Shown: piece by piece, positions 49,913 to 52,989 of the stretch | How positions within the stretch are numbered: the stretch's first letter is position 1 | How the letters are laid out: each line of letters begins with the position of its first letter | Source of the DNA: Ruegeria sp. THAF57 | GTDB lineage: Bacteria; Pseudomonadota; Alphaproteobacteria; Rhodobacterales; Rhodobacteraceae | Length of the DNA: 64,000 nt | NCBI RefSeq assembly: GCF_903914075.1 | Contig: NZ_CAIWNQ010000003.1 | Location: 62,001 to 126,000, forward strand | Reading direction: 5' to 3' | Notes under the pieces: generated by a model | What the model saw: the letters and a program-made list of their open reading frames with translations, nothing else | What the model was told of the DNA's origin: nothing | Database searches by the model: none | Position numbers and translations under genes: made by a program

Positions 49913-49940
49913 TGGACCATCCGAAGCGGGCGTCCTATAA
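49913..49940 (+). promoter_or_regulatory. Predicted ileS promoter
   Basis: TGGACC (49913-49918) and CTATAA (49935-49940) are 16 bases apart. The start of transcription would be near 49946-49949, that is, at or just before the ATG of the leader peptide. Predicted by eye. Confidence 0.45.
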
Positions 49941-49948
49941 GCGCGGCC

Positions 49949-49999
49949 ATGTATGACCGGATGGCCATCATTATTCGAATTATATCCCCGGCGCTCTGA
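49949..49999 (+). CDS. Putative Ile-rich leader peptide of ileS
   Basis: A 16-codon frame reads MYDRMAIIIRIISPAL. Five of its codons are Ile: ATC ATT ATT, then after one Arg, ATT ATA. ATT and ATA are less used than ATC in this GC-rich genome, as seen in the ribosomal protein genes here. There is no clear Shine-Dalgarno, but the predicted transcription start makes it nearly leaderless, as in rhizobial trpL. Its stop codon lies within a hairpin (49987-50016). The ileS start is 86 bases further on. It looks like a sensor of charged tRNA-Ile. It could still be a chance frame. Confidence 0.45.
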   Translation: MYDRMAIIIRIISPAL

Positions 50000-50016
50000 T
50001 ATCCTGAGACGCCGGG
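49987..50016 (+). promoter_or_regulatory. Hairpin overlapping the leader stop codon
   Basis: CCCGGCG (49987-49993) pairs perfectly with CGCCGGG (50010-50016), and CTC with GAG inside. No T run follows, so it is not an intrinsic terminator by itself. A second hairpin joins GGCCAT (49945-49950) to ATGGCC (49961-49966) over the leader start. Confidence 0.45.
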
Positions 50017-50085
50017 CAAAGGTGTTTGAGACTTCGCACCGACCGCTTCGATCCACACGACCAGATCATCCAAAGGACGCCCCCA

Positions 50086-52989
50086 ATGTGCGCCGAAACA
50101 CCTGATTACAAAGATACGCTGAACCTGCCCAAAACCGATTTCCCCATGCGCGCCGGATTGCCGAAACGCGAACCCGCATGGTTGGACCGGTGGGAGAAAA
50201 TCGGCGTCTACGACCGCCTGCGTGAAAAACAGGGCCGCACGCCCTTTACCCTGCACGACGGCCCCCCCTATGCGAACGGCCACCTGCATATCGGTCACGC
50301 GCTGAACAAGACCATCAAGGATATGATCGTGCGGTCCCATCAGATGATGGGTTTCGACGCGCGTTACGTGCCCGGCTGGGACTGCCACGGCCTGCCGATC
50401 GAGTGGAAGATCGAGGAACAGTACCGCAAGAAGGGCAAGAACAAGGACGAGGTGAACGTCGTCGACTTCCGTCAGGAATGTCGCAAGTTCGCCGAAGGCT
50501 GGATCGACATCCAGCGGGACGAGTTCAAGCGTCTTGGCATCACCGGCAACTGGGCCGATCCCTATATCACCATGGACTATCACGCCGAGGCCGTGATCGC
50601 CGATGAGTTCATGAAGTTCCTGATGAACGGCACTCTCTATCAGGGATCCAAGCCCGTGATGTGGTCGCCCATCGAGAAAACCGCCTTGGCTGAAGCCGAG
50701 GTTGAGTATCACGACAAGGAAAGCTTCACCATCTGGGTGAAGTTCAAGGTCGTGAATGCGGGCGATCTGGATGATGCGTTTGTCGTAATCTGGACCACGA
50801 CCCCTTGGACCATGCCGTCGAACAAGGCGGTCGTGTATGGTAAGGACATTTCGTATGGCCTCTACGAAGTCACCGGCGCGCCCGAAGAGTGCTGGGCCAA
50901 TGTGGGCGATAAGTTCCTGCTGGCCGACAATCTGGCCGCTGACGTGCTGGGCCGTGCCCGTCTGAACGACGACCAGTGGACTCGCGTCCGTGACGTGACC
51001 ACGGATGAGCTGGCAGGCGTTCAACTGACGCACCCGTTGGCCGGGGCCGAGGGTGGCAACGGCGAATGGGACGACATCCGCGACTTCCGCGCCGCCGAGT
51101 TCGTGACCGATACCGAAGGCACCGGTTTCGTCCACTGTGCGCCCTCGCACGGGATGGAGGAATTCGAACTCTATCGCGATCTGGGCATGCTCGAGCAGGT
51201 CATCACTTACAATGTGATGGACGACGGCTCGTTCCGCGCTGATCTGCCGTTCTTTGGTGGCAAATACATCCTGTCCCGCAAGGGTGGCGAGGGTGATGCG
51301 AACAAAGCGGTCATCGACAAGCTGGTCGAGGTCGGCGGGCTGCTGGCGCGTGGCAAGATCAAGCACAGCTATCCGCATTCGTGGCGCTCGAAGGCGCCGA
51401 TCATCTATCGCAACACGCCGCAGTGGTTTGCATCTGTTGATCGCAAGCTGGACGACGGCATGGGCGAGATGGGGGACACTATCCGTGAACGTGCCCTGCG
51501 GTCGATTGATGAGCTGGTGAAGTGGACCCCTCAGACCGGTCGGAACCGGCTGTATTCCATGATCGAAGCCCGCCCGGATTGGGTTCTGTCACGCCAGCGC
51601 GCCTGGGGTGTGCCGCTGACGTGTTTCACCAAGAAGGGCGCTCTGCCGACCGACGCCGATTACCTGCTGCGCAACGCAGACCTGAACGCGCGCATCAAGG
51701 CGGCGTTCGAAGAAAATGGCGCGGATATCTGGTACACCGACGGTTTCAAGGAACAGATGCTGGACGGCATTGCCAACCCCGACGACTATGATCAGGTGTT
51801 CGACGTTCTGGACGTGTGGTTCGATAGTGGCTCGACCCACGCTTTCGTTCTGCGCGACCGTGAGGACGGGACCGAGGACGGCATTGCCGATGTCTACATG
51901 GAAGGCACCGACCAGCACCGCGGGTGGTTCCATTCGTCCATGTTGCAAGCCTGCGGCACCAAGGGCCGCGCGCCTTACCGGAACGTGGTGACCCATGGCT
52001 TCACGCTGGATGCCAAGGGCAACAAGATGTCCAAATCGCTGGGCAACACCATCGTGCCGGAAGAGGTCATCAAGCAATATGGTGCCGATATCCTGCGTCT
52101 GTGGGTGGCTCAGACCGACTATACCGCCGACCAACGGATTGGGCCGGAAATCCTGAAAGGCACCGCAGACAGCTATCGCCGCCTGCGAAACACGATGCGC
52201 TTTATGTTGGGATCGCTGGCTGATTTCACCGAAGCTGACCGGGTGGACCCTGCGGATATGCCGCGTCTGGAGCGTTGGGTGCTGAGCCGTCTGGCCGATC
52301 TGGATGAACAGGTGCGCAAAGGCTATGCCGCGTTCGATTTCCAGGGTGTGTTCAGTGCCGTGTTCACCTTTGCCACGGTCGATCTATCCTCGTTCTATTT
52401 CGACGTGCGCAAGGATGCGCTGTATTGCGACGGCGACAACCTGCGCCGCCGCGCTGCGCGGACTGTTCTGGACATCCTATTCCACCGTCTGACCACATGG
52501 TTGGCCCCGGTTCTGGTCTTCACTATGGAAGAGGTCTGGCTGGAGCGGTTCCCGGGCGATGACAGCTCGGTTCATCTGGTGGACTTTCCTGACACGCCAG
52601 CCGACTGGCGCGATGCTGATCTTGAATCCAGCATGGCCAAAATCCGCCGCGTCCGCCGCGCCGTGACTGCCGCGCTGGAGGTTCAGCGCCAAGAGAAAGT
52701 CATCGGTTCCAGCCTTGAGGCCGCGCCGATCGTGTATGTCGAAGACACCGAGGTTCGTCACCTGCTGGCGACTTTCGACGTGGATGATCTGTGCATCACC
52801 TCGGGCCTGACTGTCACCGGCGATCCAGCCCCGGCCGAGGCGTTTCGCGTGCCCGAGATCGAAGGGGTCGCGGTGGTGTTTGAAAAAGCCGAGGGCGAAA
52901 AGTGCCAACGCTGCTGGAAAATCCTGCCGGATGTGGGGCGCCATGCGCATGACGGCGTGTGCGGACGCTGCAACGAGGCGTTGGGATAA
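50086..52989 (+). CDS. ileS: Isoleucyl-tRNA synthetase
   Basis: The 967-residue class I enzyme charges tRNA-Ile and edits valine. The HIGH motif is HLHIGH at 66-71 and KMSKS at 647-651. The editing domain has TTTPWTMPSNKAV. A C-terminal zinc ribbon uses C940, C943, C959 and C962. It is the eubacterial type with a C-terminal zinc finger. ATG 50086 is preceded by AAAGGA; the frame runs open upstream to 50026 without a start of better quality. A REP-like hairpin lies just past the stop. Confidence 0.97.
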   Translation: MCAETPDYKDTLNLPKTDFPMRAGLPKREPAWLDRWEKIGVYDRLREKQGRTPFTLHDGPPYANGHLHIGHALNKTIKDMIVRSHQMMGFDARYVPGWDCHGLPIEWKIEEQYRKKGKNKDEVNVVDFRQECRKFAEGWIDIQRDEFKRLGITGNWADPYITMDYHAEAVIADEFMKFLMNGTLYQGSKPVMWSPIEKTALAEAEVEYHDKESFTIWVKFKVVNAGDLDDAFVVIWTTTPWTMPSNKAVVYGKDISYGLYEVTGAPEECWANVGDKFLLADNLAADVLGRARLNDDQWTRVRDVTTDELAGVQLTHPLAGAEGGNGEWDDIRDFRAAEFVTDTEGTGFVHCAPSHGMEEFELYRDLGMLEQVITYNVMDDGSFRADLPFFGGKYILSRKGGEGDANKAVIDKLVEVGGLLARGKIKHSYPHSWRSKAPIIYRNTPQWFASVDRKLDDGMGEMGDTIRERALRSIDELVKWTPQTGRNRLYSMIEARPDWVLSRQRAWGVPLTCFTKKGALPTDADYLLRNADLNARIKAAFEENGADIWYTDGFKEQMLDGIANPDDYDQVFDVLDVWFDSGSTHAFVLRDREDGTEDGIADVYMEGTDQHRGWFHSSMLQACGTKGRAPYRNVVTHGFTLDAKGNKMSKSLGNTIVPEEVIKQYGADILRLWVAQTDYTADQRIGPEILKGTADSYRRLRNTMRFMLGSLADFTEADRVDPADMPRLERWVLSRLADLDEQVRKGYAAFDFQGVFSAVFTFATVDLSSFYFDVRKDALYCDGDNLRRRAARTVLDILFHRLTTWLAPVLVFTMEEVWLERFPGDDSSVHLVDFPDTPADWRDADLESSMAKIRRVRRAVTAALEVQRQEKVIGSSLEAAPIVYVEDTEVRHLLATFDVDDLCITSGLTVTGDPAPAEAFRVPEIEGVAVVFEKAEGEKCQRCWKILPDVGRHAHDGVCGRCNEALG

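Follow-up and report, generated by a model that had tools for sequence, protein, structure and literature searches.

The window analysed here is a stretch of 64,000 nucleotides from Ruegeria sp. THAF57, numbered from its first base. A short leader lies in it upstream of ileS, with the following features:

49913 to 49940, forward strand: promoter-like TGGACC-16-CTATAA, with a predicted start at the leader ATG or about 1 base off it
49949 to 49999, forward strand: leaderless 16-codon leader ORF MYDRMAIIIRIISPAL, with its ATG at 49949 and its TGA at 49997 to 49999
49976 to 49982, forward strand: element core CGAATTA, in frame as CGA-ATT-A, invariant across 105/105 distinct ileS rows
49979 to 49981, forward strand: ATT, candidate specifier codon, whose place is taken elsewhere by CTT upstream of leuA and by GTT upstream of ACT-like genes
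49987 to 50016, forward strand: hairpin A, with 7-bp arms CCCGGCG (49987 to 49993) and CGCCGGG (50010 to 50016) and the leader stop inside
50021 to 50040, forward strand: hairpin B, GGTGT (50021 to 50025) with GCACC (50036 to 50040), seen in the Rhodobacterales alignment
50072 to 50077, forward strand: Shine-Dalgarno-like AAAGGA of ileS, assigned from the sequence, with AAGGAC in 40/57 alignment rows
50086 to 52989, forward strand: ileS, with its ATG at 50086, presumably the controlled gene

TGGACC (49913 to 49918) and CTATAA (49935 to 49940) were read from the sequence with a spacer of 16 bases, upstream of the leader ATG as the initial annotation had claimed, and the -10 placement is kept in relatives. 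Direct reading also bore out its 16-codon frame with five Ile codons (ATC ATT ATT, then CGA, then ATT ATA), its 7-bp GC hairpin around the stop codon, and the 86 bases between the leader stop and the ileS ATG. Hairpin A begins 8 bases past the first base of the candidate specifier codon. The pattern CGAATTANNNNCCCGG has its sole site in this genome at the leader core, and three further CGA-NNN-A hairpin matches of the same genome (L248, L250 and L251) looked chance-like on inspection. That no T run follows the hairpin, as had been remarked, holds as well: no run of at least 4 T was found 3' of hairpin A, TTT being the longest, and a terminator scan of the leader gave no site.

The scan for sigma-70 consensus promoters gave 0 sites at the leader and missed TGGACC-16-CTATAA, the folding energy of the leader was ordinary (z 0.18), and no Rfam match was obtained at the leader. 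As these single-sequence statistics are unremarkable, the leader would have escaped them, and it is the comparison between genomes that decides. The window also holds a SAM/SAH riboswitch aptamer (RF01727) at positions 204 to 252 of the forward strand, detected with 58.1 bits.

The conservation of the leader was studied at ileS loci chosen by the ileS protein and not by the leader, namely the 80 closest of 596 candidates on named contigs, a sample biased to near relatives, and 30 of 54 genomes of the genus. The resulting 111 loci include the window's own locus as both L001 and L082 and some genomes twice, in such a way that 105 rows are distinct. Rhodobacterales is used here as a working label, given by record title and kinship, for L002 to L111, L143, L145 and L146, with L027 known only as an alphaproteobacterium. 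A short ATG frame with R-I-x-x-P was present upstream of ileS in all 111 loci. Selection of rows by the peptide rule R-I-x-x-P-A/T, the least biased measure of core fixity, gave CGAATTA-N4-CCCG followed by the hairpin in 105/105 distinct rows. Codon usage in ileS of the 80 named loci puts CGA at 1.4% of the Arg codons (n = 3661) and ATT at 11.9% of the Ile codons (n = 2534).

The initial annotation had named a short frame with a run of Ile codons before ileS as the thing to look for in related genomes. The frame recurs throughout, and the run is found mainly in Rhodobacterales, where 91/97 ileS leaders have at least two Ile within the eight codons before CGA, versus 12/33 of the other ileS leaders; fewer than two are found in 21/33 ileS leaders outside Rhodobacterales. 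In 101 distinct rows, filtered beforehand for the element, synonymous changes occur in the three Ile codons that precede CGA, and CGA, ATT and CCG are fixed. What is strictly kept is a single ATT codon, with CGA before it, A after it and a constant 8 bases to the hairpin, and the alignments identify CGA-ATT-A-N4-CCCG plus hairpin, not the Ile run, as the invariant core. There is one exception before ileS in the window's family, L182, where GCC replaces CGA before ATT and the hairpin is kept.

A TA-type -10 4-mer starting 12 to 14 bases before the in-frame ATG was found in 91/91 distinct Rhodobacterales rows, versus 9/91 at the control distance, and CTATAA or TTATAA stands 7 to 8 bases before this ATG in 75/101 distinct Rhodobacterales rows. 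The same test gave 21/33 for the other ileS leaders (0 at the control distance), 16/48 for ACT leaders (6) and 6/11 for leuA leaders (1). Such a -10 placement is as expected for a leaderless mRNA, judged from sequence, and the recurrence of leader and -10 in Rhodobacterales is not chance. Altogether, the comparison strongly supports the proposal that a leaderless leader peptide would sense Ile and be linked to ileS.

Signs of translation were found at the codon after the specifier, which encodes Ile, Thr, Ser or Met in 102/103 distinct rows of the class. When this codon begins with AG, its third base is a pyrimidine in 35/35 cases of the counted set (AGY for Ser, no AGR for Arg), versus a purine third base in 87/158 cases after AC or AT (p = 5e-11). 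A single AGG lies outside the counted set, in L307, and L168 has AAC at this codon. The AGY-only bias argues for selection on the residue or codon, and this points to translation of the leader frame.

The reach of the element was examined in 385 alphaproteobacterial genomes. The pattern CGAATTANNNNCCCGGC matched 83/385, with a reversed control matching 19 genomes. A covariance model, R1, trained on 43 rows, all of them CGAATTA (ATT), matched 89/385 genomes at 105 places; part of the constancy of CGA across the class comes from this training, and part of the constant distance between codon and hairpin comes from the selection in the sets picked by pattern. An in-frame ATG lies at most 120 bases before the element at 104/105 R1 places, and at L200 and L242 the core reads CGAATTC. 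Among 249 genomes sampled from the phylum, whose share from outside the class is unstated, R1 matched 33, all of the same class or nearer. The next gene at the 105 places, assigned by tblastn, was ileS in 40, ACT-like in 45, NTF2-like in 4 and other in 16. These last 16 comprise six leuA places, five that precede a P-loop kinase, two that are ACT-like by eye (L216 and L236), two false-looking matches (L246 and L230) and L203, with a leader and a downstream gene without assignment. The element is thus not confined to ileS or to Rhodobacterales, and the initial observation is right and understated.

The candidate specifier codon follows the downstream gene. R1 had only ATT rows in its training set, yet the six leuA places that it found all carry CTT in the position of ATT elsewhere. 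Counted over distinct exact-core leaders, leuA is the downstream gene for 11/12 with CTT versus 0/89 with ATT (Fisher 7.6e-14, relatedness not corrected). These distinct counts merge the duplicate places L169/L283 and L170/L282 and leave out the leaders without an exact core, including L200, L242 and L182, as well as L228 and L237 (CTT before leuA, with an imperfect 3' arm). Seven further CTT leaders, among the matches listed for a wider pattern, all lie before leuA. A search for CGACTTA plus hairpin covered 144 genomes, a set that overlaps the earlier samples, and returned 11 rows for 10 distinct places (reversed control, 5 genomes). Of these places, 8 precede leuA, 1 precedes an ACT-like gene and 1 has no leader ATG; 7 were already in the earlier sets.

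Other codons were also searched. GTT (Val) was found in 2/101 genomes, both times upstream of ACT-like genes and both times in leaders that read R-L then R-V within one frame, and TTT (Phe) in 0/101 genomes, in such a way that among the four NTT codons the branched-chain ones are those found. With a pattern for codons not beginning with A (183 genomes), 9 of the 12 listed places inspected have CTT or GTT, and those with other codons (G220, G250 and G088) showed no leader of the ileS/leuA element type. A loose pattern for other specifier codons matched 202/385 genomes, was swamped by background and was left unused. The composition of the eight residues that precede CGA was counted as well: Leu accounts for 31% in leuA leaders versus 5% in ileS leaders outside Rhodobacterales, and Ile for 36% in Rhodobacterales ileS leaders, 13% in other ileS leaders and 5.7% in leuA leaders. 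The match between codon and gene, Ile before ileS and Leu before leuA, is a direct observation.

The ACT-like protein has about 100 residues. Pfam at 0.001 gave no family for two members, and the weaker Pfam matches were ACT_AHAS_ss (0.03) and ACT_5 (0.02), with unrelated families at similar E-values. For 14 members the best NCBIfam match was PRK11895, an acetolactate synthase small subunit (4 members, E as low as 6e-4), and the only PDB chains at E < 1 were 2fgc (0.19) and 2f1f (0.51), both acetolactate synthase small subunits. With caution, it may be described as an orphan ACT protein resembling the AHAS small subunit. For most members the computationally assigned start lies 73 to 83 bases away from CGA. 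The ORF of many ACT leaders continues beyond the hairpin and overlaps the ACT start, which hints at translational control at these overlapping leaders.

Some leaders are arranged in series. At L282 (3705 to 3786) and L283 (3661 onward, both in reverse-complement coordinates), R-L and then R-V leaders precede an ACT-like gene in one frame, and a separate R-I leader lies about 1.3 kb further, before a second ACT-like gene. At L232 and L247, two R-I elements follow each other with a single ACT-like gene downstream. In some alphaproteobacterial families, R-I leaders also lie before NTF2-like or P-loop kinase genes, at L163 to L165 and L188 (the places of L125 to L128), L174, L184, L193, L231 and L241. 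These are nine loci, and neither gene has a known link to Ile; one P-loop kinase member tested is AAA_33 in Pfam, and one member with the NTF2-like label, given by eye, has no Pfam family.

The window's leader thus probably belongs to a family, spread over alphaproteobacteria, of leaders through which the ribosome senses branched-chain amino acids with one specifier codon. The leaderless mRNA would open with a short ORF that carries CGA-NTT-A at a set distance before a GC hairpin, and the first base of NTT would set the amino acid read, with ATT for Ile, CTT for Leu and GTT for Val. When the cognate tRNA is uncharged, the ribosome would wait with NTT in the A site; from the 8-base spacing between codon and hairpin we infer that it would occupy roughly the first half of hairpin A's 5' arm and hinder the formation of this hairpin. 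When decoding is fast, the ribosome would finish and depart, the hairpin would form, and expression of the next gene would be lowered, possibly through Rho, hairpin B or translation control. The sensing half of this scheme is well supported by the comparison; that the ribosome stalls, which way this acts and how it reaches the next gene is proposed from the arrangement of the features.

Some of the same conservation could also come from a nascent chain. In this unlikely alternative the peptide R-(I/L/V)-(I/T/S)-x-P-A would arrest the ribosome, possibly in response to a free branched-chain amino acid or at a slow Pro step, and not to tRNA charging. Conservation at the residue level extends to R, to P and to a small or beta-branched residue that follows the specifier, and the stop often follows PA immediately, as such a peptide would have it. 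However, CGA and CCG are fixed as codons, beyond their residues, the residue x is free, and the leaders of Rhodobacterales ileS and of leuA carry runs specific for their amino acid upstream. We also know of no arrest motif that swaps one residue according to the downstream pathway, which counts against arrest.

The output step of the ribosome-sensed leader was addressed through its RNA structure. The alignment supports hairpin A, where some rows have inner pairs with both partners changed, and hairpin B shows clear covariation in Rhodobacterales, with C-G in 33, U-A in 19 and U-G in 3 of 57 rows at columns 82-98, and A-U in 28 and G-C in 21 of 57 at columns 88-94. The conserved AAGG..TG that follows hairpin A had been considered as a second start or the true ileS start and was rejected, as the frame is not kept: this codon (TTG at 50026 in the window) is in frame with ileS in 25/81 rows, with a stop in 9 of those 25. 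It seems better read as part of hairpin B. A refolding switch between the 3' arm of hairpin A and the 5' arm of hairpin B, modelled on the assumption that the ribosome covers 12 bases counted from its A site, was unsupported over 57 rows, since the alternative pairing reached 0.80-0.97 for the window alone and averaged 0.14 at best over the alignment; accessibility of the ileS Shine-Dalgarno was the same in both modelled states.

Terminator-like tails, defined as at least 5 T in 8 bases starting 0 to 2 bases after the arm, were found in 0/76 Rhodobacterales ileS, 5/33 other ileS, 3/47 ACT and 0/11 leuA leaders, and a looser T-rich count gave 20/76, 10/33, 18/47 and 7/11, respectively. An intrinsic terminator is therefore plausible for only a few leaders and for none in Rhodobacterales, judging by these tails. 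A general pairing of CGAAT with a downstream ATTCG was also considered and rejected. Its rise over shuffles was slight in ileS leaders (8.85 vs 8.18 outside Rhodobacterales and 8.14 vs 7.49 within); it was raised in ACT leaders (10.36 vs 8.52, sd 0.21), and the equivalent pairing for CGACTTA in leuA leaders gave 9.64 vs 8.81 (sd 0.53).

The fixity of CGA, TTA and the CCCGG/CCGGG arms at the nucleotide level would also suit an RNA element that works without a ribosome, in which a tRNA reads the specifier of CGA-NUU-A as in a T-box, or the hairpin and CGAAUUA bind a protein, for instance IleRS. The GA before the codon and the A after it do recall the specifier loops of T-boxes. Rfam gave no T-box (stem I, specifier loop, antiterminator) for the window, nor for 20 related loci, where no family was found at the leader and the sole match was ribosomal RNA. 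The in-frame ATG at nearly all R1 places, the residue-level selection and the in-frame stops favour translation, and a binding site for IleRS would leave leuA with CTT unexplained, so that we consider this explanation improbable. In Actinobacteria, T-boxes before ileS provide a tRNA-dependent control that is proposed to be translational, and there, as far as the accessible text of the source goes, the RNA reads the tRNA directly, in contrast to the window, which is without a T-box match (PMC1262725).

A constitutive leader or DNA element with no amino-acid response (start-region spacing, an RNase E site or a promoter feature) is highly improbable: the promoter is very close and GAAUU fits the RNase E consensus, but the matching of codon and pathway and the residue-specific runs would stay unexplained.

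Several observations nevertheless weigh against the ribosome-sensed reading. The strict invariance of CGA and of the bases next to the codon exceeds the needs of plain attenuation, terminator-like tails are rare, and the alternative fold is unsupported across the alignment. Further points are the ACT leader ORFs that run into the ACT start, the nine R-I loci without an Ile link, and the ileS leaders beyond Rhodobacterales, most of them without an Ile run.

Classical attenuators such as trpL, ilvL, leuL and pheL depend on several control codons in a row and on a terminator with a U tract. The leaders described here resemble them in the short ORF, the cognate codons and the hairpin that overlaps the ORF end; unlike them, the ileS, leuA and ACT leaders have one fixed codon in an invariant CGA-NTT-A, class-wide. 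The translated short ORF of an attenuator has its counterpart in the residue-level selection, the in-frame ATG and stop and the leaderless -10, which suggest translation, and cognate codons at a fixed place were found, Ile for ileS and Leu for leuA. Because a U-tract terminator was looked for and not found, the leader would work like a ribosome-mediated attenuator, as a variant with one fixed specifier codon.

We know of no CGA-NTT-A core in trpL/rnTrpL. This system of the alphaproteobacterium Sinorhizobium meliloti resembles the window's leader in being a leaderless attenuator ORF, and differs from it in its amino acid, Trp, and in the gene controlled, according to the accessible part of its description (PMC10117765). 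For Caulobacter, the accessible portion of the source names a leader CDS upstream of trpS as well as attenuation of ilvIH (PMC4117421). The closest described system, as judged from the available text, is the uORFC-8-2 motif, a cysS leader of Rhodobacterales with tandem Cys codons in a stem, a U run and an intrinsic terminator (PMC8632094). Like the window's leader, it is a short Rhodobacterales ORF that carries cognate codons upstream of a gene for an aminoacyl-tRNA synthetase and for which ribosome-mediated attenuation is proposed; it differs in that this text describes it only before cysS in Rhodobacterales and does not mention a CGA-NTT-A core (PMC8632094). The window's leader has Ile codons, precedes ileS and is without a U run.

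Full-text literature searches returned, in the accessible portions of the papers, no account of CGA-NTT-A leaders before ileS or leuA in alphaproteobacteria. Vitreschak and colleagues reportedly predicted alphaproteobacterial ilvIH attenuators in 2004, which could cover part of the CGA-NTT-A leaders.

A more specific form of the ribosome-sensed reading is put forward tentatively, as a possibility that we hold less firmly than membership in the family. The leader would be a modular one-codon decoder in which the invariant CGA, the A and the hairpin 8 bases ahead hold the ribosome, and one base of NTT (A, C or G) sets whether Ile, Leu or Val charging is read, as a ribosome-based analogue of the T-box specifier. 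This decoder would have been reused before ileS, leuA and the orphan ACT protein, and in a Leu-then-Val series in some genomes. It raises a sharp question, the strict retention of the rare CGA beside the control codon.

The proposal suggests a regulator for the essential ileS, for leuA and for the ACT-like protein, and it would tie the latter to branched-chain metabolism. If it is true, many alphaproteobacteria, which to our knowledge have no T-boxes, would have a common, codon-swappable sensor of branched-chain tRNA charging, whose specificity would be predictable from one base.
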